This document shows positions 3,094-20,621 of a stretch of DNA of 21,041 bases, piece by piece. The stretch lies in the IMG/VR virus record IMGVR_UViG_3300037172_000018, positions 1-21,041 of that record. One strand, given 5' to 3'. This DNA comes from a virus. Position 1 is the stretch's first letter. Every line of letters starts with the position of its first letter. The notes under the pieces are model-generated. The model was not told the DNA's origin, did no database searches, and saw only the letters and a list, made by a program, of their open reading frames with translations. The position numbers and the translations under genes are program-made.

Positions 3094-3149
3094 GATAGAT
3101 ACTCCTGCTACGGGTTTAAAATCGAAAATTGACGAATAAAATTCATAGA

Positions 3150-3173
3150 CGTCAACATATATATTTATTGACA
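3150..3173. promoter_or_regulatory. Inverted repeat in the divergent intergenic region, possible operator
   Basis: TGTCAA and TTGACG (read on the minus strand) face each other around a 12-base AT-only centre; on the plus strand this is cGTCAA then TTGACa. The element lies between the fibre gene read left and the helix-turn-helix gene read right, where a repressor site would be expected. The arms are only five perfect pairs, so chance is possible. Confidence 0.3.
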
Positions 3174-3182
3174 AATAGACTG

Positions 3183-3211
3183 TTGTGTTTTAATGAAGGA
3201 TATGTGATACT
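3183..3211 (+). promoter_or_regulatory. Candidate promoter for the HTH/membrane-protein cassette
   Basis: TTGTGT (3183-3188) and GATACT (3206-3211) are separated by 17 bases, with a TG extension just before the -10 hexamer. A TTGACA at 3168-3173 lies a little upstream but has no good -10 partner at the right distance. The predicted transcript would start about 30 bases before the ATG at 3249. Confidence 0.35.
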
Positions 3212-3248
3212 ATTGCTATATATGTCATGCAAACAAAGGAACGTAACA

Positions 3249-3443
3249 ATGGATATAGTTTTTTTGACCGTTGAGGAGTTCGCTCAACGCATTAAGATGC
3301 ATCCTGGCACGGTTAGAAAAGGAATCAAAGAAGGAAAAATATTTGCTAGCCGTCCTAGTATGGGTAAAAGAGCACCTTACAGGATCGCTGAGTCAGAACT
3401 GGAAAGACTCCATCTACAGGGTATGTGTGAACGAAACAAGTAA
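3249..3443 (+). CDS. Small excisionase-like helix-turn-helix DNA-binding protein, 64 residues
   Basis: The protein reads MDIVFLTVEEFAQRIKMHPG, followed by TVRKGIKEGKIFASRP, then PYRIAESELERL. This is the usual layout of the helix-turn-helix_17/excisionase family: a TVEEFA helix, a TVRKGI recognition helix, a short KIFASR wing and a YRI..SELERL tail. The length (64) is typical. The start at 3249 is chosen for AAGGA eight bases upstream; the longer frame from 3129 reads through the promoter-like region. It is the first gene of a plus-strand trio against the direction of the structural genes. It could regulate this cassette or the adjacent fibre genes, or be an excisionase. No integrase is in the window. 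Confidence 0.75.
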   Translation: MDIVFLTVEEFAQRIKMHPGTVRKGIKEGKIFASRPSMGKRAPYRIAESELERLHLQGMCERNK

Positions 3444-3455
3444 AGGAGAAAATAC

Positions 3456-3674
3456 ATGGAATATATGGGATTAATCGTCGCTTTTGGAGCGCTTAGTGTC
3501 ACAATGGTAGGAGTACTGATCTCCTGTATGTTTTGGATGCGCGGAGAGGCCAATAATTTACGCCTGGAAGCTCAGGCCGATCGCCGAGATATTTTGCAGC
3601 TCATCCGTGCGATTGATAAAGAGATACGGGACTTCCACACAAGATTATGCGCTATTGAAGAGAGAAGAAAGTAA
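3456..3674 (+). CDS. Single-pass membrane protein with coiled-coil tail, 72 residues
   Basis: Residues 4-28 form one hydrophobic segment (MGLIVAFGALSVTMVG onward, ending FWM). After it comes a charged helical tail (RRDILQLIRAIDKEIRDF) likely to form a coiled coil. AAGGAG seven bases before the ATG supports the start, and the stop overlaps the next start in TAATG. Size and topology fit phage lysis-type accessory proteins (holin- or spanin-like), but there is no diagnostic motif and no endolysin nearby, so the role is open. Confidence 0.65.
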   Translation: MEYMGLIVAFGALSVTMVGVLISCMFWMRGEANNLRLEAQADRRDILQLIRAIDKEIRDFHTRLCAIEERRK

Positions 3675-3943
3675 TGGGTACTGAATGGGCGCAAATAATC
3701 ACAATATGCGGGACGATCGTTGGCGGACTTGCATTCCTTTCCGGGATCATCATTTGGATGGTCGGTAAAGTCGATGCGGACGTTTCAACTGCGTGTGGGC
3801 GTATTGATGATCAAGGGAAAAGAATTGATAAATTGATTTACGCATTCATGGAGTTCCAGCGTGGAGTGAACGCAGATATTCGTGAAGTTGAAAAAGATAT
3901 TAATAAATTGGAAAAAATAATACCTGAATTTAAAAGGAAATGA
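3674..3943 (+). CDS. Single-pass membrane protein with coiled-coil tail, 89 residues
   Basis: A hydrophobic segment at about residues 7-31 (IITICGTIVGGLAFLSG then IIIWMVG) is followed by a charged helical region (about 33-85) containing IREVEKDINKLEKI. The architecture mirrors the preceding gene, and the shared start/stop base (TAATG) implies translational coupling. The two may work as a pair in the membrane, for example in lysis or in superinfection control. That is inference: neither resembles a named holin closely enough. The gene ends eight bases before the convergent ejection-protein gene. Confidence 0.65.
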   Translation: MGTEWAQIITICGTIVGGLAFLSGIIIWMVGKVDADVSTACGRIDDQGKRIDKLIYAFMEFQRGVNADIREVEKDINKLEKIIPEFKRK

Positions 3944-3951
3944 AATGATTG

Positions 3952-5751
3952 TTATTTTGCAGATTTTTGGAGCTGCTCTTCTTCTTCTCTGGCTTGAGGC
4001 GAATTGTTGATTAGTTCTTGCGCGAGAATCATGGCTTGTTGTGGCGAGTTATTTTTCGCCGCTACAATGAGTCTCTTCATGATATTCTGTTTTTCAGGAT
4101 CAGTCAAAAGTGATGTCGCCAGCTTTTTGGCTGCATGTAATGTGACAACAGCTCCCAGGGTTTTATAATCGCCAGTCAACAGTGCACGAACACCTTCCAA
4201 AATTTTAAGCGATTGAATTGTTTTATCGTTCTTGGGAATTTGTTTGAGCAGAGATTCAATGGCATCTGCGCCTTTGGTTATAGACTTGATGTTTTGCAGT
4301 TGCTCAGGTCCTAAGACCTTTTTAGATAGTTCGTGGTTCTTGGGATCATTAAGAATGGAAGCGAGTCTTTTAAAATTCATTCCATCGACGTTTTGAGCTT
4401 TCTCAATCGTTTGCATAAGATCCTTGGCATTTAGCCAATGCTTCCAAACATCATTGGTGATCTCGAAATACTTGCCGAATTTAGCTCCTTCAGGACCGGA
4501 CCCGGAAAACGTGTCTTTAATTCCCTGCTTTACCAGTCCAAGCAAGTGCTCTTTCTGCTTAGGATCTCCCCAATTGCCCGCCTTACCAAGATTGCGATAA
4601 AAGCCAGTGAAGAACTCAGCTGTATCCGCGTTGTCAAGCTTTGTCAGACCATCTTTCATGAACTCAATGAATTTCTTTTGCTCATCTAGCAGAGGATACT
4701 TCTCTAAGTAAGCAATCGCATTTTCGATAGCGTTTTTTACAGGTTCCTTATTTCTTATGGGCACGCTGGAGGCCAATTCTTCCATTGATTGATAAACGTT
4801 TGAAGCTTGTTTTTCAAGATACGGTATACCACCGTCGGCATATCCAGGAAGTCCCTTTTTAATCTGTTCTTTGAATAATTCTTCACTGTTTTTCACTCCC
4901 TGCTGAATGGAATTTTCGGCTTCAGGCGTGAGTGATGCATACTTTTTTAATATCTTTCTTTCTTCAAGAGCACTCTTAGCCAGCGTAATATCTTTTTCGG
5001 AATATCCTGCCTTTCTCAAATCCTTGAGTACTTTCTCAACTTCCTTAGTTTTCGACGTCACTGGTACATTGGTTTTAGGGCCAAATTTTAATGCGGCGAT
5101 GATTTCAGCAGCAGCTTGCGCCCATGGTGGCGCTCCCAATTCTTCGAGAGTCTGACCAGCTGCTCCCGCCACAATGGGGGCTATGATACCGCCTCCACCA
5201 AACGCTACGCCCCCGCCTCCAAGCCTCCCCATTCTTCGACCGTAACGTCCAGCAGCCGTTTTAGGTTCTGATACGAGGCCGAGTTGTTTACCATGTTCTT
5301 CTACTTGCCTAGACGATGCAAGACGTGAATATCTTGGGATGACATCTTCGTCTGAAAGCTCCATGAGTTCCCCAAAGGATGGCTTTTCCCCTTGATTCAT
5401 TTTCTCTAGAATATCGAAATCACGACCAATCTTGGCTTTTTCTCCTGGGAGCACGTCTGTGGCTTGTAGGCCTAATAAATCAAGCACATCGCCATAGGTG
5501 CCTAGAAGACCGATACCGAAACCTTGAGCCCCTTGCTTGCTGAAATCAGCGACATAATCACCTACTCCTAAGTCTTCTTTTTTACTAGGACCATTGAAAT
5601 AGTTAATCACTTCTTCTGGTGAATAGCCTGCTTCTTGTGCCTTGAGTACCTTGTCTTCAAAAGATGGATCTTTTGTGCCTAGATATTCCATGATCTCCTC
5701 ATCGGAATATCCCGCCTGCTTAGCTTGCTGATATTTTCCTTGATAGTTCAT
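3952..5751 (-). CDS. Putative DNA-ejection (internal virion) protein, P22 gp16 position, 599 residues
   Basis: This is the last of three coupled genes in the order seen for P22 7-20-16. Its start overlaps the preceding stop in ATGA. The N-terminus has two short repeats built on AGYSDEEI (13-20) and AGYSPEEV (41-48), and a related AGYSEKDI occurs near 248-255. A Gly/Ala-rich hydrophobic stretch at about 176-222 (GRLGGGGVAFGGGGIIAP, then VAGAAGQTLEEL) could enter a membrane. The C-terminal half is mostly charged helix. P22 gp16 is 609 residues long, close to this. By analogy the protein is packed in the capsid and leaves with the DNA to help cross the cell envelope. Assignment is by order, size and composition. 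Confidence 0.6.
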   Translation of the reverse strand: MNYQGKYQQAKQAGYSDEEIMEYLGTKDPSFEDKVLKAQEAGYSPEEVINYFNGPSKKEDLGVGDYVADFSKQGAQGFGIGLLGTYGDVLDLLGLQATDVLPGEKAKIGRDFDILEKMNQGEKPSFGELMELSDEDVIPRYSRLASSRQVEEHGKQLGLVSEPKTAAGRYGRRMGRLGGGGVAFGGGGIIAPIVAGAAGQTLEELGAPPWAQAAAEIIAALKFGPKTNVPVTSKTKEVEKVLKDLRKAGYSEKDITLAKSALEERKILKKYASLTPEAENSIQQGVKNSEELFKEQIKKGLPGYADGGIPYLEKQASNVYQSMEELASSVPIRNKEPVKNAIENAIAYLEKYPLLDEQKKFIEFMKDGLTKLDNADTAEFFTGFYRNLGKAGNWGDPKQKEHLLGLVKQGIKDTFSGSGPEGAKFGKYFEITNDVWKHWLNAKDLMQTIEKAQNVDGMNFKRLASILNDPKNHELSKKVLGPEQLQNIKSITKGADAIESLLKQIPKNDKTIQSLKILEGVRALLTGDYKTLGAVVTLHAAKKLATSLLTDPEKQNIMKRLIVAAKNNSPQQAMILAQELINNSPQAREEEEQLQKSAK

Positions 5752-7016
5752 CCAAAAATCTCATCTAAAGAAGGACGATTTTGTTTTTCTGTATCTTCTT
5801 CAACCATTGCTCTAGCCCTGCTATTAGTCTGCTTTAACTGATCTTCCAGTTGAGATTTCAATTTTCGATAATTTTCTGTGGCATATTTTTTTATCAGCAC
5901 AGGATCAGCGCCCGAACCGTAGTGATCCATGGCAGCTTTATATGTTTCATCTTTGAGGTAAGCAATGCGATTACCCAATGCCAACTGATGGGCTATGAGA
6001 TGGCGACCTTCTGGACTATTAGCAAGCGTAGGAAAGCCCTGTTTGAACTGATCTAAGTCAAAGTTTGTGACTCGACCTGGAAAGAAGTCCTTGGCCCTTC
6101 GCGCCATCCGCGCAATGGTTTTGGCATAGTCCTGAGCTTCCGGAGTCGCTAAAGCTTTAACCCGCGGATCTCCCGTATCCCAGTTAACGTTCCATTTTGC
6201 GATGCCAGTCGGAAGAACGCCAGGAATCTCGTTGAGATCCTGAAGATGTTTCACTTCCCGATATTCATCATCTAAGGCATTCAGCCTATCCACAGCTTCG
6301 GTGTAAGTCGGAATATTGGTTTTTTCTCTATATTCGTTTTGTTTAACGATATCAGCAGGAGTCATGCCAACGGGTTCTGGCAACTCTGGAAAATCTAATT
6401 CTAACGTTCCCAAGTTTGTCCCGGGAATATCAATATTGGGTTTGCTTTCTTCTCTCGTTTCTTGCTGTTGCCCAAGCCCTTTCCCAGATTTCGAGCGTCT
6501 GATTAAATCATTCACATTTTTAATTACATCAGATTGGCCTCCTGTTGGGGCATTTTCCATCTGATTTTGCCATATTTTTGCTGTTTCTTCGGGATATCCT
6601 GCTTTAATTAGCGAATCTAGTACACTTTTTCCAGCCTCTCTTCTCTTCTGTAGATCTCGAACTTTCAACTGGGTTTCGGGTTTCAGTTTGCTTAAATCTT
6701 TGGCTGATACCTTTTCACCAGACACTACACGGCCAAGAACGTCTTGCTCAGCTTCATTCATTTCTTGCTGTTCAATCTGCATGCGCTGCTTAAATATTTC
6801 CTGACCTTTCTCACCATAAGGGCTTAGGGCAGATCGTAATGCCTCTAATTTCTTGGATTGTGGAGCACCTTCGAGAGACTTATCATGGAGCACGCTTTCT
6901 AGGCTTCTGTTAGCGAAGAAGGTATTCAATCCGTTTCCAATCCCTTGGCCTAAACTCATGCCAAGCATGTCCGCGAGTTGTCCTTGAGGATTTCCTGTTT
7001 CAATCACTTGGACCAT
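5748..7016 (-). CDS. Putative DNA-ejection (internal virion) protein, P22 gp20 position, 422 residues
   Basis: The middle gene of the ejection-protein trio. It overlaps the upstream stop by one base (TGATG) and the downstream start by four (ATGA). The protein is Gln-, Lys- and Glu-rich and mainly helical, with coiled-coil-like stretches (about 60-135 and 345-415) and a Pro-rich linker near 190-235. It contains one AGYPEET segment near 140, resembling the repeats in the next protein. No enzymatic motif is seen. P22 gp20 is about 470 residues, a comparable size. The function is inferred from gene order and composition. Confidence 0.55.
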   Translation of the reverse strand: MVQVIETGNPQGQLADMLGMSLGQGIGNGLNTFFANRSLESVLHDKSLEGAPQSKKLEALRSALSPYGEKGQEIFKQRMQIEQQEMNEAEQDVLGRVVSGEKVSAKDLSKLKPETQLKVRDLQKRREAGKSVLDSLIKAGYPEETAKIWQNQMENAPTGGQSDVIKNVNDLIRRSKSGKGLGQQQETREESKPNIDIPGTNLGTLELDFPELPEPVGMTPADIVKQNEYREKTNIPTYTEAVDRLNALDDEYREVKHLQDLNEIPGVLPTGIAKWNVNWDTGDPRVKALATPEAQDYAKTIARMARRAKDFFPGRVTNFDLDQFKQGFPTLANSPEGRHLIAHQLALGNRIAYLKDETYKAAMDHYGSGADPVLIKKYATENYRKLKSQLEDQLKQTNSRARAMVEEDTEKQNRPSLDEIFG

Positions 7017-7606
7017 CAGTATATTCCTCCTCCGCTACGTTTGAACAGGCTGCTGATGCCTGATGAAAGACCCTGACCGAGAAGTCCTCCAATTGGGCCA
7101 CCCATAGATGTTCCGATGCCGCCTAATAAATTACCTAAGAAGCCGCTGGAACCTTGTTGCTTATTATAGGCAAAGGGCTGGTAATTGAGACCTGTATGGG
7201 TCAGCTGATTATATTGATTGTATTGTTGGTTAGCTGCTTGACCTTGAAGTTCGGAAAACAGTTGAGCAAGTTGTGCTTGCAACCCGGCGCCTGCTCCCCC
7301 TATAGCCTGCCCAAGACCGCTTGATGACAACGCTCCCATGCCTCCGAATCGTTCCATAATACGCGGCAATATCTGCTCTTCAAACTGCTGAAAATAGGGA
7401 GAAGAAAATTGATCGAGAGATTGCTGTTGATTGCCACCTAAAAAGTTGTTGAAGTAGTTCTGAGCCAGGTCATACCCTCCCCCTTGCTGCTGCATGCCCA
7501 TGGCTTGGCCGATAATGCTGTTATGCAAGCCCTGCATTTCTGGAGTGCCTGTCGGAATCTTTTTTAACTTATCGGGACTTCCGAAAAGAAAATCACTGAC
7601 TTTCAT
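7016..7606 (-). CDS. Putative DNA-ejection (internal virion) protein, P22 gp7 position, 196 residues
   Basis: The protein begins MKVSDFLFGSPDKLKKIPTG and is Gln/Gly-rich throughout (GMQQQGGGYDLAQNYF, QGQAANQQYNQYNQL). A glycine-zipper-like hydrophobic C-terminal segment (153-190, with GGIGTSMGGPIGGLLGQGL) is a candidate membrane-active region. AGGTG five bases before the ATG supports the start. It is first in the ejection trio and smallest, as gp7 is in P22 (229 residues). By analogy it would be an early-ejected pore component; the sequence itself shows only the composition and the glycine-rich tail. Confidence 0.6.
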   Translation of the reverse strand: MKVSDFLFGSPDKLKKIPTGTPEMQGLHNSIIGQAMGMQQQGGGYDLAQNYFNNFLGGNQQQSLDQFSSPYFQQFEEQILPRIMERFGGMGALSSSGLGQAIGGAGAGLQAQLAQLFSELQGQAANQQYNQYNQLTHTGLNYQPFAYNKQQGSSGFLGNLLGGIGTSMGGPIGGLLGQGLSSGISSLFKRSGGGIY

Positions 7607-12006: not shown

Positions 12007-13370
12007 ATCGACCCAAAGTTAGTTAATCCGCCGCCAGAGCCGTAGTTGTATGTGAGCTGATCGGTGTAAAGCGTTGAAATCCTTTCCTGACCTATCTGTG
12101 CATAGGTTCTCGTTTCGATCACATCATATCTTTCTTTCAGCATCTTGTCGATGAACATGACGCCATCAGAATCAAGTCTCTCTTCGAATATCTTCTTAGC
12201 GGCTCCTACGGATAGGATTTCCCACCATTCGGAAAGCTCAGGATTTCCAGCCATATCAGAGGCGAGGAGCGCTTGAATAGGCTGTCGGTAGCATGTGAGT
12301 TCGACGGTATAACCGGCATCTGGCACTGGAGCTAGAGTAAACTGGTTTTGATAGAACATGATCGCTAGAGGTATTGAGAACTGCTTGGGATTGTACTGAA
12401 TCTGTATTGGAGTGCCTTCAGGTATAGCCTCAGTAAAGGTTAATCCTGTAATTTGGCCAGTTTGATAATTAATTGTCGCATTACCCGGTAATGTAGGGGT
12501 AGAAGAAGCATATTGACGATAGTAAGTCCATCCATACTCTTGATTTCCATTGTTGCTTGTCTGGAAGATTTGAATGAGATTTCCCTGTCCATCGTCCGTG
12601 ACGTTTTGTGTCTGACCAACGCCGTTAGGACCTATCACGTTAGCCGTGATGAGGACGTTTTGAACCCTTCCCTGAGTGAAGAAAAGATTTCGGTTGGTTT
12701 GGGTTCCAGGATCATTGTTGACGCTAGCAATAAGGGGTGAGGCCGTTGTGAAACCATTGTAGGGCGATGAATACCAGTTACCGCCAGAAGTATAAGCGCC
12801 AAAACCCGTCGAGTTCACGTTCAAAGAGAAGTCATTGGCATCTATTACGGTAATGTTATAGGTATTTCCGTTAACCTGAATCATGCCTCCGACGTTATTG
12901 ATGATTACCGCTGTACCTGAGACGAGACCGTGATTGGGCGCTGTCACGACGGCGTTTACCGCGTTCGTGATGCCTGTAATCGTCCCGGTCTGAGAGCCAG
13001 TAGTTCCATCGCCCGTGGCAAATGTTGTGAACTGCTGCCAGTTGTAGTTAACCCCATAGAAATTCCAGGGATTGTGGAAGAGCTTGATTTCCCTTTTAGC
13101 GCAATAGCATGGCGCATTTACCGTGATGTAGAGTTCGCTGTTAAACGGATATACGTCTTGTCCGACGTTCGTTGTGAATGTGTAGACATCCTTTAGCTTT
13201 AATGATCGGAACTTAGCTGGCAAGTCGTAGGAATAGAAGCTATGCATCTGCTGTACGATATATTCATCCGTGACCTGAAATGCGTTACTAGAACCCGTAA
13301 GCTTCCTTGTCTTTGTGACCGCATTGGCCAGTGTCGGGTACAAAGGATATGTTGGTACAAACGTTGTCAT
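12003..13370 (-). CDS. Putative head-tail adaptor/neck protein, 455 residues
   Basis: The N-terminal part (PTYPLYPTLANAVTKTRKLT, then TDEYIVQQMHSFYSYDLPA) is mostly helical. The C-terminal part (NPELSEWWEILSVGAAKKIF, then EERLDSDGVMFIDKMLKERY) is also helical. Both fit the helical-bundle adaptors that sit under the portal in short-tailed phages. Between them, at about 131-200, is an FCCH-like beta-module (APNHGLVSGTAVIINNVGGM then IQVNGNTYNITV and YTSGGNW). The ATG overlaps the preceding stop by four bases. P22 gp4 or T7 gp11 are functional parallels; the size is larger because of the inserted module. Function is inferred from position and helix pattern. Confidence 0.5.
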   Translation of the reverse strand: MTTFVPTYPLYPTLANAVTKTRKLTGSSNAFQVTDEYIVQQMHSFYSYDLPAKFRSLKLKDVYTFTTNVGQDVYPFNSELYITVNAPCYCAKREIKLFHNPWNFYGVNYNWQQFTTFATGDGTTGSQTGTITGITNAVNAVVTAPNHGLVSGTAVIINNVGGMIQVNGNTYNITVIDANDFSLNVNSTGFGAYTSGGNWYSSPYNGFTTASPLIASVNNDPGTQTNRNLFFTQGRVQNVLITANVIGPNGVGQTQNVTDDGQGNLIQIFQTSNNGNQEYGWTYYRQYASSTPTLPGNATINYQTGQITGLTFTEAIPEGTPIQIQYNPKQFSIPLAIMFYQNQFTLAPVPDAGYTVELTCYRQPIQALLASDMAGNPELSEWWEILSVGAAKKIFEERLDSDGVMFIDKMLKERYDVIETRTYAQIGQERISTLYTDQLTYNYGSGGGLTNFGSI

Positions 13371-15269: not shown

Positions 15270-16217
15270 TTAAATACCTGTTGAACGTAGGTTTAGAATC
15301 CAGAGGTCATTTGTGATGCATTGCCCTTGGTAGAACGAGCAACCCGCGGTATGACGAAGCATACATGGGTCGTTGTTATATCCTGGGGGTAGATAGATAA
15401 AGCGAGCTTTACCACCTGCTTGCCACACAACTTTGTAAGCTTCTTTCGCTGCCACGAAGCAGTTAGCAATGTCATTGCCAAGCAAAGATGCATTGGGGTT
15501 GACAGAACCTTGCTCAGAGACAAAGAAGCGCACGTTATTCGCTCCGCCTATCTCAACGCTCAAAGTTTGAGATATGTTTGGATACTGGAATTTCTTGATG
15601 AATCCCGTCATGTTGTAGAAGACTGGAATCATGCGAGTAGTAGCCATACAGCCATAGGCATCACCGATGGGACTTGTGCCGAAGCGCAATTCCGCTTCTA
15701 CAATGTTGGTGATGTACTCTCCAGAGTTGTTTTGTAGCACCGTGAAGACGTCATCAACGTCTGATATTACCATTTCACTAGGAATATCGCCGTTACTGCC
15801 CCCGACACAGTTTATGATACTTGCAGAACTTTCCAAACTGTCTCTCTGGAGGGCGTCCTGAGTTTCTCTTAAACTTTGTCCTAAACGCGCTGCAGCACTA
15901 TTGAGAACGGGATCTTCGTTAGTGATCGTAACTTGACGAGTCAAAACGATATAAGTCGCATAGACACGTACACGGCAATCCACATCAACACGATTAAGTT
16001 GTTGGGGTGGTGGGTTGTTTTGGGCATCATCGAGAGGCACTTCGAATAGGTCAAGCCTATCGTAACGTGACTGACGATCAATAAAGCCCTGATTGTCTGG
16101 CAACTCGACTGGTGTAGCAAACAACTGGTGAATTAGGTTGTGCTCTGGAGTTGACATCAATTTAGCGTTGTACCGCGCCTGTATCTGCGATGGCAACGAA
16201 GCAATTGATACTGTCAT
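15270..16217 (-). CDS. Major capsid protein, N4-gp56-like HK97 fold, 315 residues
   Basis: The central region (RVRVYATYIVLTRQVTITNE, then DPVLNSAAARLGQSLRETQD and ALQRDSLESSAS) matches the pattern of the N4-gp56 capsid family: a beta segment, then DP.L..A...LG, then a D.L.R..L helix. This corresponds to the long spine-helix region of HK97-fold shells. Later parts (SPIGDAYGCMATTRMIPVFY, then KFQYPNI) correspond to the peripheral domain. The length is typical. It is flanked by a scaffold-like gene upstream and a decoration-like gene downstream, the classical capsid block. The Cys residues in the tail (DPCMLRH, GCSFYQGQC) could be structural. Confidence 0.75.
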   Translation of the reverse strand: MTVSIASLPSQIQARYNAKLMSTPEHNLIHQLFATPVELPDNQGFIDRQSRYDRLDLFEVPLDDAQNNPPPQQLNRVDVDCRVRVYATYIVLTRQVTITNEDPVLNSAAARLGQSLRETQDALQRDSLESSASIINCVGGSNGDIPSEMVISDVDDVFTVLQNNSGEYITNIVEAELRFGTSPIGDAYGCMATTRMIPVFYNMTGFIKKFQYPNISQTLSVEIGGANNVRFFVSEQGSVNPNASLLGNDIANCFVAAKEAYKVVWQAGGKARFIYLPPGYNNDPCMLRHTAGCSFYQGQCITNDLWILNLRSTGI

Positions 16218-16238: not shown

Positions 16239-17003
16239 CTAGGTCATTTCGGGAACCGAGCCAACTAAAGCTGCATATCCATGCATCTCGCGATATAGGT
16301 CTTTCTTCATAGCATCTGTGAGCTGGAAAGCCTGGGCAATAGGCCGCTTATCGTAAGCCATGGGAGACGTGACCGCCTTCCCCGCCTTTTCGATAGCTTT
16401 GTCTACTTCCTTCTCTCTTCGCGCTTCAGTTGCTGACTTAGCAAGTCCCATCGCTTTGATGTATTTGTAGCTTTGCACGCCGATCTTATACGGGTCTTTT
16501 AGGTCCGCAATCGTCGCCGCCAACTCAGGTTCCTTCTCTTCCAAAATTGATAAAGTTTCCGGATTGACGATCTCTGAGAAATCTGAATACTGACGACTCA
16601 AGCGGTCCATGAATTGATCATCTTGCATCTTCTTGAGGCGTCTTTCGACGGCCCTGTCAACAAGATCCTCGGCATTTTTGAGCACCTTCTGAGAGCTTTT
16701 CTCAGTCAGTTCTTTCACCTTACCAAAGGGGATAAACTCTTCTGCGCCGATTTTATCAAACTCATCAACCTCTTGACGCACAGGGGCAGCATGGGCAAGC
16801 TGGGCTTGCATAATCTGCATCTGTGTCTCTCTCAGTTGTTTCAGTTCTCTCTCGAGTTCGGCATTCTTAAGACGCATCGCCTTCAAGTGCTGGTTAGTTA
16901 CCGGCTCTTGCAATTGCTGCGTCTCTTTCACTTCATTGACTTCGGTTTCTACCTGGGTTGCTACCCCTTGACTTTCGCTGTTTAGGGTTTCCGTCTCAGT
17001 CAT
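16239..17003 (-). CDS. Putative scaffolding protein, 254 residues
   Basis: The protein is acidic and almost wholly helical. The N-terminus is Glu/Gln/Thr-rich and disordered (1-38), and residues 40-72 form a coiled coil (LKAMRLKNAELERELKQLRE). The remainder is charged helix (KVLKNAEDLVDRAVERRLKK) with no membrane segment. Position immediately before the major capsid gene, size and composition fit an internal scaffold. An AGAGGA site five bases before the ATG supports the start. It may instead be a capsid-assembly cofactor, since no sequence-level scaffold signature is available. Confidence 0.65.
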   Translation of the reverse strand: MTETETLNSESQGVATQVETEVNEVKETQQLQEPVTNQHLKAMRLKNAELERELKQLRETQMQIMQAQLAHAAPVRQEVDEFDKIGAEEFIPFGKVKELTEKSSQKVLKNAEDLVDRAVERRLKKMQDDQFMDRLSRQYSDFSEIVNPETLSILEEKEPELAATIADLKDPYKIGVQSYKYIKAMGLAKSATEARREKEVDKAIEKAGKAVTSPMAYDKRPIAQAFQLTDAMKKDLYREMHGYAALVGSVPEMT

Positions 17004-17086
17004 GAATTCCTCTCTGTTAGGTGGTCGGCTAGGCCCACGATTTACGCCGTGACGGAGGGCTAATCCGCCTTTTTTGCGCCCTTACG

Positions 17087-17115
17087 TTGACTTTCTATAA
17101 TAGAAATAATATAAG
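17087..17115 (+). promoter_or_regulatory. Sigma70-type promoter with palindromic spacer
   Basis: TTGACT (17087-17092) and TATAAG (17110-17115) are exactly 17 bases apart. The predicted start is about 15 bases upstream of the ATG at 17136. The spacer holds TTTCTAT-A-ATAGAAA (17092-17106), two perfect seven-base arms around one base, as expected for a repressor operator that overlaps RNA polymerase contacts. Confidence 0.65.
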
Positions 17116-17135
17116 TCGAATAAAAAAAGGGTTAT

Positions 17136-17456
17136 ATGATTTGCCCTAATTGCAAAAAAGAAAGGTTAGATGAAGATTTTATAAATAATCAGAAATTTTG
17201 CTATCACTGCGTATTTCGGATGAAGACGCGAAAACCAACGACAAAGCGAACACAGAAACCAGCCGCTTGTCGCATGTGCGGAAAGGACATAATCAGGAAC
17301 GAATATCTGAAGAAACGCCAAAGAACCGTCTTTTGCTCGCCAGAATGCGCAGCGAAAGGACACGAAGAACAATTAAAAAACCATTGGACCAGGAAACTCT
17401 CGGTCCCGACTTTTTGCCCGGACACAGGACTAAACATATGGAGTTCAAATCGCTAA
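17136..17456 (+). CDS. Double zinc-finger protein, 106 residues
   Basis: Two Cys4 clusters are visible. The first has C3, C6, C22 and C25 (CPNC ... CYHC). The second has C45, C48, C67 and C71 (CRMC ... CSPEC). A basic linker (RMKTRKPTTKRTQKP) lies between. Such small two-finger proteins bind nucleic acid or partner proteins. AAGGG sits four to five bases before the ATG. It is the first gene behind a promoter with a palindromic spacer, and faces against the structural genes. It may be a regulator. The last 19 bases overlap the next gene in another frame. Confidence 0.7.
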   Translation: MICPNCKKERLDEDFINNQKFCYHCVFRMKTRKPTTKRTQKPAACRMCGKDIIRNEYLKKRQRTVFCSPECAAKGHEEQLKNHWTRKLSVPTFCPDTGLNIWSSNR

Positions 17457-17995
17457 TAGACCCTTCTCGAGGCACTGTAGGGTCAATTTACAGAGACGCA
17501 CAGATCAAGGGAGAAAGAGGCGTTGTAATTGGTGACGTTAATCATGAAATCCAAAAAGATTTGGTGAAAGACATCAATGAAGCCATCCAGAAAGGACGGA
17601 GTCATCCGGATTTTAAAGACAGGCCATTTTACTTGGCCTTTTACGAAAAGTATGACCTCATGCTGAAACGAGGTCTGGTCCGCATACCTAAAATCACCAG
17701 GTATAGACCCTATCCAGAACAGGACACAATGGTGTTTCATATCTTTCCTAATGACGACGTCTACTTCTGTTGGGAATTGCCACATAGGTCGCAGATGCGG
17801 AATATCTTGATGAATCCTGATCTATTTGACAACGACCGCGTCGATACACTTAGGCGATGGGAAAACCTTCAACTTGAATATTTCGGCTTTACAAAAGACT
17901 CGGAAGGCCATTGGGTAGAGAATGAGCTTTATCGAGGCGATAAGTTGCTTGGGTCGTCCGATGGTCAGAAGCCAGTTAAAATTCTGCGGACGTGA
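17438..17995 (+). CDS. Unknown protein of 185 residues in the zinc-finger cassette
   Basis: The start at 17438 (MEFKSLIDPSRGTVGSIYRD) is chosen for AGGA eight bases upstream. An in-frame start at 17198 would lie almost entirely inside the zinc-finger gene. The protein mixes charged helices (NHEIQKDLVKDINEAIQKG, then FYLAFYEKYDLMLKRGLVRI) with an aromatic stretch (DTMVFHIFPNDDVYFCWELP) and ends in WENLQLEYFGFTKDSEGHW. There is no signal peptide, membrane segment or known catalytic motif. The short overlap with the zinc-finger gene suggests coupled translation and a shared role. The family is not recognised. Confidence 0.75.
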   Translation: MEFKSLIDPSRGTVGSIYRDAQIKGERGVVIGDVNHEIQKDLVKDINEAIQKGRSHPDFKDRPFYLAFYEKYDLMLKRGLVRIPKITRYRPYPEQDTMVFHIFPNDDVYFCWELPHRSQMRNILMNPDLFDNDRVDTLRRWENLQLEYFGFTKDSEGHWVENELYRGDKLLGSSDGQKPVKILRT

Positions 17996-18091: not shown

Positions 18092-18171
18092 AGGCACGTG
18101 TAAGACTTGCACTTACGACCTCATCTAATCTCGGGGGACTAGAGGCGCTCTACTACCTGAGCTAACATGCC
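18092..18171 (-). tRNA. tRNA-like element with irregular anticodon arm
   Basis: On the minus strand the sequence has a seven-pair acceptor stem (GGCATGT with ACGTGCC, one G-U pair) and T8 A9. The D arm is GCTC-AGGTAGTA-GAGC. A T arm follows with stem GTAAG/CTTAC and loop TGCAAGT (T54, C56, A57, A58 and T60 match; position 55 is G instead of T). The segment between the D and T arms is 29 nt where 22 is normal. With a five-base variable loop the anticodon stem is CCTCT/AGATG with one mismatch and the loop is 14 nt, so no anticodon can be assigned. CCA is not encoded. It begins seven bases after the preceding ORF stop. It may be a decayed tRNA, a tRNA mimic, or a split-loop form. Confidence 0.5.
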
Positions 18172-18605: not shown

Positions 18606-20621
18606 TCATGCAACATTTTGGTTATTTGCAACTACTTCTTTCTCTGGATTGGCGGCCGGGCTCAGTTCATTTAAGATTTGCACTTGAGTCATGAGGTGAT
18701 CGAGATCCATGCCTTTCAATTCCTTGAGAGCCTTAACAACGTTAAGAAGGCTTGCCGTATCCTCTTGATGGGCACGGCGCAACTTGTCCTGAGCCACGGC
18801 CGCATCAGTTTGGATCTTAGCCACGCGCTCGGATGCGAGACCTTCCTGACTATGCGCATAAGCCACTTTAGTCATGTTGTCAACCTGCATCTGCTGCATC
18901 TGAAGTTGTTCCATCTTTTGTTGTTGTTCCTGCATCGCTTGCTGTTTCGCCATGACTTTTTCAACGATCCTGTCTTTGTTTTGCAACGTCATGCACTCCA
19001 GGACTTCGTCCGGAGGAATCAAGTCAGGGTATAGTTGCTGAGCATGCAGAATTTGAGCTAACTCTAACTGCTGTTGCGTTTCAGTGAGGGCTGCCTGAAT
19101 GACCTTACAACCATACTTGAAGAATATTTTGCTGTCGAATTCTGCCGTAGGCTCTTCACCGATAATCTGGCGCACTTTTCCGTAAGTCCAGTTTTTCTGA
19201 ATATACTCAATCTCGATGTCAGCGCACAGCCGTTGCGATTCATCGGCCTGGTCAAAGAGCCTCTGTAAATTTCTTGCGGTAGCTGCCTGCCTCATCATGG
19301 TTATGATGCCAGCCTTGTCATCTATGTCCATGCCCATGGCATTAGGGTCGATGCCAGCTATGTTAAAGAAGATACCTTTAAGCATCTCTTCCATTTGGAG
19401 CATGACGGGAGACGGCGGCACAATAGGCATGGCCTGGACGTCATCCATTTGGAAATCTGGATCGATTGAAAGAACACGGCCATGACCGGAATTCAAAGCG
19501 TCTTCCGGAGTCACCAGAGCGCCTTTCTTAACCTTCAACCCCTGCTGCTGCGCATCGAGTATTTCTAAATTCGATACCTTAAGCCTGTTGAGAAGGTATT
19601 GACAATCACGCAGCATGGTCATGGGACTATTGAACTTGTATGAGTAGTAGGGAGTGTCTGCTGTAAAGAAGGCCAGCATAGGCACCACGGGGTATCTGTC
19701 CATGCCGTAGGGATTGGGTTCGTCTACAATGACGCGGTCATTCAAAATGATGCTTCTGCGTACCGTGGGAACCTGTTTTTTGAGCGTCCTTAACTTTCCC
19801 TTGAATGCTTGCATGATCTCTTTCAGCTGTTCGGGCGTGCCTTGAAATTCCTGGCACTCTTCCGTTTTTCTATCGACAAGGAAAGTAGCTTCTCGACTCG
19901 TCAGATACCAATATTCATCAAAGGCGATCAGGTTAGGGAATTGAATCTGATATACCTCGGGCATGTAGTAGAATTTGTCATCGCGGTACGTGCCTTTAGG
20001 AAGTGATAGGATCTCGTCTCCAAATTGGGGATACATGAGAGCGGCTTCTTGAGCATCAAAAAAGGTTCTTACCCACCAGAAGCGCGCGTCGCTCATGTCA
20101 TGTTTACGGAAATATGGATCAAAAAGGCATGACTTCATATCGACGTAACGCCAGCGGGGATCTGGACTCAGAGGATCTCTTGTAGAGTCCCCATACATGT
20201 ACATGAAGCCCAGACCTTGAATGATAGCGCCTAGCTGAAAGGCATCGCTGAACGTCGTGTGAAAGCCTTCCTTGTGATTGTGGTATAGGCATTTAGTCAG
20301 TTGATCAGCCGTTTTTTGCATGCCATTTCTCACGGGAATACAGGCAGAACTTTTCCTTGTCTGGCGCTGTTGACCGCTTATTGCCTCGCTGATTGGATTC
20401 ATAATGTTGAAATTCCAAATCTTCCGTCGGTATGTTGCGACGCCAGGGAAAATCAGGCCCCAAACTTCCTGGTCATTGATGGTGAAACGCTGGTTAAGGT
20501 CAGCCTGATACCATTGCGTCTGAAGGATATTAATGCTGTCGGAATAATTCTTTTCCATACCCTGGCGCAGCGAGACATTTAAAGACTCTTCTGGCCAAAA
20601 AATAGGGTCGTTATTTCGCAT
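18606..20621 (-). CDS. Portal protein, P22-like, 671 residues
   Basis: The N-terminal segment (NFNIMNPISEAISGQQRQTR at 71-90) and the region YVDMKSCLFDPYFRKHDMSD (159-178) followed by ARFWWVRTFFDAQEA fit the P22-type portal family. The C-terminal 118 residues (554-671) are Gln-rich coiled coil (QAMQEQQQKMEQLQMQQMQV and RVAKIQTDAAVAQDKLRRAH), like the helical barrel of P22 portals. The length is close to P22 gp1 (725). It would form the ring at the DNA-packaging vertex; terminase genes are not in the window and probably lie to the right. GGTG four bases before the ATG is a modest ribosome-binding site. Confidence 0.8.
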   Translation of the reverse strand: MRNNDPIFWPEESLNVSLRQGMEKNYSDSINILQTQWYQADLNQRFTINDQEVWGLIFPGVATYRRKIWNFNIMNPISEAISGQQRQTRKSSACIPVRNGMQKTADQLTKCLYHNHKEGFHTTFSDAFQLGAIIQGLGFMYMYGDSTRDPLSPDPRWRYVDMKSCLFDPYFRKHDMSDARFWWVRTFFDAQEAALMYPQFGDEILSLPKGTYRDDKFYYMPEVYQIQFPNLIAFDEYWYLTSREATFLVDRKTEECQEFQGTPEQLKEIMQAFKGKLRTLKKQVPTVRRSIILNDRVIVDEPNPYGMDRYPVVPMLAFFTADTPYYSYKFNSPMTMLRDCQYLLNRLKVSNLEILDAQQQGLKVKKGALVTPEDALNSGHGRVLSIDPDFQMDDVQAMPIVPPSPVMLQMEEMLKGIFFNIAGIDPNAMGMDIDDKAGIITMMRQAATARNLQRLFDQADESQRLCADIEIEYIQKNWTYGKVRQIIGEEPTAEFDSKIFFKYGCKVIQAALTETQQQLELAQILHAQQLYPDLIPPDEVLECMTLQNKDRIVEKVMAKQQAMQEQQQKMEQLQMQQMQVDNMTKVAYAHSQEGLASERVAKIQTDAAVAQDKLRRAHQEDTASLLNVVKALKELKGMDLDHLMTQVQILNELSPAANPEKEVVANNQNVA

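Follow-up and report, generated by a model that had tools for sequence, protein, structure and literature searches.

A zinc-finger gene unit opposing the head genes is a core part of an uncultured phage family

Why would a phage keep two genes pointing against the head genes that surround them? In the 21,041-base IMG/VR virus record analysed here (the window, meaning this whole stretch of DNA), the structural genes adjoining a small plus-strand cassette all lie on the minus strand. The preliminary description had read the cassette as a regulated moron or as an early or lysogenic gene unit. The locus is laid out as follows:

15270-16217, minus strand: major head protein (phrog_1357, E 1.6e-17)
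16239-17003, minus strand: scaffold-like protein of 254 aa that opens the divergent head operon, with a function suggested by its position before the major head protein
17087-17115, plus strand: sigma70-like cassette promoter TTGACT-17-TATAAG (-35 TTGACT at 17087-17092, 17-nt spacer, -10 TATAAG at 17110-17115)
17136-17456, plus strand: ZF, a 106-aa protein (ATG at 17136) with an N-terminal zinc ribbon and a treble-clef/FCS-like finger
17438-17995, plus strand: P185, an uncharacterised alpha/beta protein of 185 aa (ATG at 17438) whose gene overlaps that of ZF by 19 nt
18606-20621, minus strand: portal protein (phrog_156, E 6.1e-47)

The flanking matches to phrog_156 and phrog_1357, both on the minus strand, bear out the placement of the cassette between the portal group and the scaffold. 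This order is fixed in the window's clade: scaffold (minus), promoter, ZF (plus), P185 (plus), a gap, g59 (minus), g86 (minus) and portal (minus). The coupling of the two plus-strand ORFs also held, as they overlap in the window and both are conserved in dozens of IMG/VR relatives. Among the relatives aligned first, P185 identity was 72-83% and most changes fell at third codon positions (e.g., 35/20/99); ZF was 47-61% identical among relatives with 8/8 cysteines invariant. These alignments show both ORFs to be coding. A second plus-strand cluster lies at 3129-3943 of the window. It encodes two small proteins and one that is HTH_17/excisionase-like (Pfam E 1e-7); the gene of the latter is conserved in near-complete relatives.

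The promoter reported in the preliminary description is present and is strongly conserved. Its 41 distinct copies in relatives are near-invariant, following TTGACTTT(G/C)T..AATA.AA...TATA(A/T)GTC with a spacer of 17 in 41/41. When whole records were scanned, the pattern TTGAC-N18-TATAWG was found exactly once in each of 22/22 close relatives, always as the cassette promoter, and the reversed control pattern had 0 occurrences in the same 22 records. The pattern was absent from five distant records scanned in the same way. The -10 box reads TATAAG or TATATG, with G where sigma70 prefers T, and a generic promoter scanner missed this promoter because it requires T as the final -10 base; the sigma70 consensus may not be that of the host. 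The cassette is thus predicted to be a separate transcription unit that opposes the structural genes from its own sigma70-like promoter, a property shared with morons.

In prophages, loci transcribed antisense to the lytic genes from a promoter of their own are as a rule active in lysogeny, and morons characteristically occupy such positions (PMC7067206). The cassette resembles these loci in its sigma70-like promoter, its antisense direction and its place between head genes. It might therefore be a classical moron, an autonomously transcribed pair of prophage cargo genes that alters the host, for instance by superinfection exclusion. ZF is far more variable than the neighbouring genes, which fits this idea. 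Composition points both ways: the G+C content of ZF is 3-10 points lower, in relatives 5-10 points below that of its genome, and the G+C content of P185 is close to its genome's. Morons, however, are sporadic. Scans with P185 had yielded 10, then 68, then 80 loci, and relatives for a test of universality were fetched by their head protein, which avoids the bias of a search by P185; 50 of them had enough sequence. P185 was found in 50/50, and 47/50 also carried a zinc protein whose gene diverges from that of the scaffold. The optional insertion that the word moron had implied was rejected on these counts, the unit being present in essentially every relative. The cassette differs from the moron loci of PMC7067206 also in that its second gene changes orientation and that no intrinsic terminator was found on the plus strand after P185 in a scan of the window (in one relative, L003, a hairpin there could terminate). 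We consider the moron reading improbable, and the ZF-P185 cassette is by its distribution a fixed core part of the phage family rather than a stray insertion.

Named phages gave no portal match, and their head protein was only ~20% identical. Three matches in MAGs came from bins of Deltaproteobacteria, Verrucomicrobia and Acidobacteria; two of them sit on contigs of about phage-genome size, which makes the bin assignments unreliable as pointers to a host.

The two genes of the cassette do not behave alike in the relatives. Wherever ZF is present it remains divergent from the scaffold gene; it is missing from that place in L205, L215 and L155 among the 50 capsid-selected relatives, and also in L145 and L094. 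P185 is antisense to the head genes in 27 of the 50 and shares their direction in 23. When mapped onto a quick tree of 72 portal proteins, which has some long branches, its orientation requires five changes by parsimony, with at least four forced by the starred branches. In L155 (669-1690), which is near the window by its head protein, P185 is reduced to a remnant of 112 residues that points the opposite way, and another CxxC protein stands in the place of ZF; this may be an inversion that happened recently. Because P185 keeps its interval while its gene has repeatedly been turned round in place, it seems tied to the locus rather than to the transcript of ZF or to one expression class. Where it lies along the late genes it cannot belong to an opposing operon, so that early or lysogenic timing may concern ZF only.

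These results could also be read in terms of the virion. P185 would be an accessory of head assembly or packaging, ZF would regulate the adjacent capsid operon through its promoter or its structured leader, and the reversed orientation would be incidental. The constancy of P185 within the portal-scaffold interval in either orientation agrees with this, as does its direction along the late genes in clades whose portal is ~77-85% identical. A virion protein, on the other hand, needs no strong separate promoter, and the predicted fold of P185 is unlike known head proteins. Overall, we regard this alternative as somewhat unlikely.

P185 was described initially as unrecognised, and so it stayed: no sequence homologue was found in Pfam, PHROGs or the PDB, and it was unmatched among 50,697 named phages. 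A first AlphaFold model from 9 sequences was poor (pLDDT 51) and was superseded by a model built with 73 sequences (mean pLDDT 83.7), in which two helices, a four-stranded sheet and two further helices follow one another. Foldseek searches with this model returned five uncharacterised phage proteins of uncultured Caudovirales (E 2e-8 to 2e-4). Four of these, BFVD entries A0A6J5QJK1, A0A6J5LM39, A0A6J5KIB6 and A0A6J5P3P2, share the fold with a probability of 1.0 (E 2e-8 to 8e-6) at ~20% identity. The PDB fold search gave nothing convincing, its best match (Z 4.8 over 70 residues) being taken as noise, and a missing PDB match is not proof that the fold is new.

The double Cys4 character attributed to ZF was confirmed. 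Finger 1 is a zinc ribbon, CX2C-X15-CX2C (C3, C6, C22, C25), finger 2 has the spacing CX2C-X18-CX3C (C45, C48, C67, C71), and all eight cysteines are kept in relatives. The second half, with its CX2C...FCSxxC finger, resembles the treble-clef fingers of zf-FCS (PF06467) and DUF2116 (PF09889), but ZF carries an additional N-terminal zinc ribbon and scores just under the cut-offs: 21.4 bits against a curated cut-off of 22.4 for zf-FCS, and, for its relatives, 25.9 against 26.8 for DUF2116. The C2H2 fingers that the ZF profile matched in the PDB look like composition matches and were discarded. The late activators P2 Ogr and P4 Delta have a single Cys4 site with the spacing CX2C-X22-CX4C. ZF does not have this spacing, its own two being invariant instead. 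One relative (L128, 1735-2103) encodes a ZF of 122 aa whose zinc-finger region seems to be partly duplicated internally. ZF may have a regulatory role.

If the cassette is regulated, where would a regulator bind? Two symmetric elements overlap the promoter:

17092-17106, strandless: 7-1-7 palindrome TTTCTATAATAGAAA, specific to the window
17087-17119, strandless: dyad T.GACTT ... AAGTC.A, a candidate operator that brackets the -35 and -10 boxes, with mirror matches across 56 distinct promoters

The palindrome, which the preliminary description had seen as an operator, is indeed exact in the spacer of the window's promoter. Its proposed role did not survive the comparison with relatives, on which that description had itself made the proposal depend: the palindrome is perfect in only 1/41 distinct promoters and was therefore rejected as the operator. 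A 7-1-7 palindrome turns up by chance in 0.9% of shuffled intergenic sequences, and 7-bp arms around any loop of 0-4 turn up in 3%; the window holds another such palindrome at 12479.

The dyad has the family-wide form T.GAC(T/A)T...A(A/T)GTC.A, and its arms covary between lineages. The GTC 3' of the -10 box is invariant and mirrors the GAC of the -35 box, and sigma70 does not require this GTC. With the arms in their true register, mirrored positions match in 56, 22, 54, 55, 56, 47 and 45 of the 56 distinct promoters, and this agreement collapses when the register is slid. At the fourth arm position the pairs are T-A in 36 promoters, A-T in 11, T-T in 8 and A-A in 1. In the next clade the dyad reads TTGACA...TATATGTC, and in L069 it reads GACAATAA...TTATTGTC. 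Because the counts are not corrected for kinship among the sequences, they are suggestive but not conclusive; the dyad is a plausible operator, which would be bound by a protein. No divergent minus-strand promoter was found by eye within the conserved dyad.

Two structured RNA elements adjoin the cassette:

17004-17086, minus strand: leader at the 5' end of the scaffold-MCP mRNA, in which two hairpin/pseudoknot units lie in tandem (copies at ~17081-17051 and 17049-17021), identified by covariation
18093-18171, minus strand: tRNA-like cloverleaf whose acceptor, D and T arms are canonical and whose anticodon arm is atypical, located in the gap that separates P185 from the next structural gene

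Each unit of the leader begins with a GGC segment, followed by a stem, a TAGCC-bearing loop and the closing stem. Its stem pairs covary (pair 23-42: A-U 20, G-C 18, G-U 13; pair 29-39: G-C 26, A-U 17, U-A 4), and so do the pseudoknot pairs that join the loop to upstream sequence (pair 8-37: A-U 20, G-C 19). RNAalifold cannot predict the pseudoknot pairs, so these were placed manually and compared with shuffles and slides; in 56 sequences the complete structure outscores 500/500 shuffles and all slides. The minimum-free-energy fold of the leader alone was no better than shuffles (z 0.26), so that the case for structure rests on covariation. In the window and three near-complete relatives the unit was located only in the scaffold leader, and never in shuffled genomes; the leader of the window had no Rfam match up to E 1. 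Units are also seen in the leaders of L002-L144. That the leader elements covary beside a ZF gene divergent from the scaffold in nearly all lineages would suit a ZF that regulates the capsid operon. Similar tandem hairpins, however, are visible by eye in the distant lineages L145 and L094, which have no ZF between P185 and the scaffold, and this speaks against that reading.

The tRNA-like element keeps its gap and strand in the window's clade (L008, L010, L030, L036, L126, L144 and others). Its acceptor, D and T arms covary over 22 sequences, with 99.4% of cells paired and 7 pairs changed on both sides; these pair counts lean toward the model, since the alignment was made to fit it. The three arms are those of a tRNA, and the anticodon arm is not: instead of a 5-bp stem with a 7-nt loop it is elongated, often to 7-10 bp, and hypervariable in length and sequence. 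Neither ARAGORN, also run with introns, nor Rfam (up to E 1, window) recognised the element. It is known that phage tRNAs can escape defences directed at tRNAs (PMC11555353), and one guess is that this element might act as a decoy against such defences. A hypervariable anticodon arm would suit a counter-defence locus, and the cassette could accordingly be imagined as an anti-defence or host-takeover operon that is expressed immediately after DNA entry and is unrelated to lysogeny. Its single strong consensus promoter and its fast-evolving small zinc protein would fit. Neither Pfam nor PHROGs matched it to a known anti-defence family, however, and the genes found in the same gap in relatives (below) suggest maintenance; we consider this reading very unlikely.

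In ~15 relatives the gap after P185 holds a ParA ATPase (phrog_164, E 1e-39; Pfam AAA_31, E 2e-14) accompanied by a small basic partner protein. Late-strand ParA and partner genes occupy the gap in L029 (6682-8503), L036, L046, L136, L144 and others. Beside ParA in L046 (7869-8474, equal to G018 12180-12785), a 201-aa protein has a weak C-terminal HTH like that of sigma-70 region 4. L089 carries at 4746-7201, all in one direction, ZF, a tyrosine integrase, P185, a small ORF and a ParE/YoeB-like toxin, the direction being that of the cassette. Three near-complete relatives read whole encode an ERF recombinase, a small HTH protein of the Cro/CI type and a DnaC-like helicase loader, along with a YqaJ-like nuclease recognised by eye; we noticed neither an integrase nor an RNA polymerase in their ORFs. 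Many relatives have no ParA in the gap, and the window, a 21-kb fragment, is without ParA, replication or repressor genes, so the partition and replication genes expected of a phage-plasmid are found in relatives only. A 42-kb phage-plasmid of Tritonibacter mobilis carries parAB and YoeB-YefM (PMC10090143). The family shares with it a ~40-kb genome, head genes with ParA and, in one relative's gap, a ParE/YoeB-like toxin; it differs in being another phage type and in the absence of ParA from the window fragment. The lineages with ParA in the gap likely form an uncultured phage-plasmid family, and we infer that the window's own phage would be temperate, probably living as a phage-plasmid.

Because ParA, integrase and a ParE-like toxin occupy the same gap in relatives, early or lysogenic expression of the cassette is plausible, and it is the best available reading, with the arguments for and against its truth about evenly balanced. 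The host's sigma70-type RNA polymerase would read the cassette from the genome's one strong consensus promoter of its type, early after infection and/or in lysogeny, while the opposite-strand head genes are silent; a regulator binding the T.GACTT/AAGTC.A dyad around the promoter would turn the unit off. ZF would be a small zinc-ribbon/treble-clef regulator that binds nucleic acid, and P185 a small soluble accessory protein. The timing of expression is suggested by gene content and layout. This overall reading, in which the cassette is a control operon at the core of a podovirus family that is temperate and probably lives as phage-plasmids, with such early and/or lysogenic expression, may equally be right or wrong. 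A more elaborate proposal, which we consider quite unlikely, is that the portal-scaffold interval is an undescribed decision locus, in which the dyad-controlled zinc protein would regulate the capsid operon through the leader pseudoknots, P185 would alternate by inversion between an early or lysogenic and a late transcript, and a tRNA mimic with a hypervariable anticodon arm would also be produced from this interval.

Our results replace the notion of an optional cargo with that of a core two-gene unit at a fixed site, in an uncultured phage family for which no cultured relative was found. The P185 gene, turned round in place several times, would constitute a natural experiment in early versus late expression. 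Finally, the two structured RNAs that adjoin the cassette are new to Rfam and are open to direct testing.
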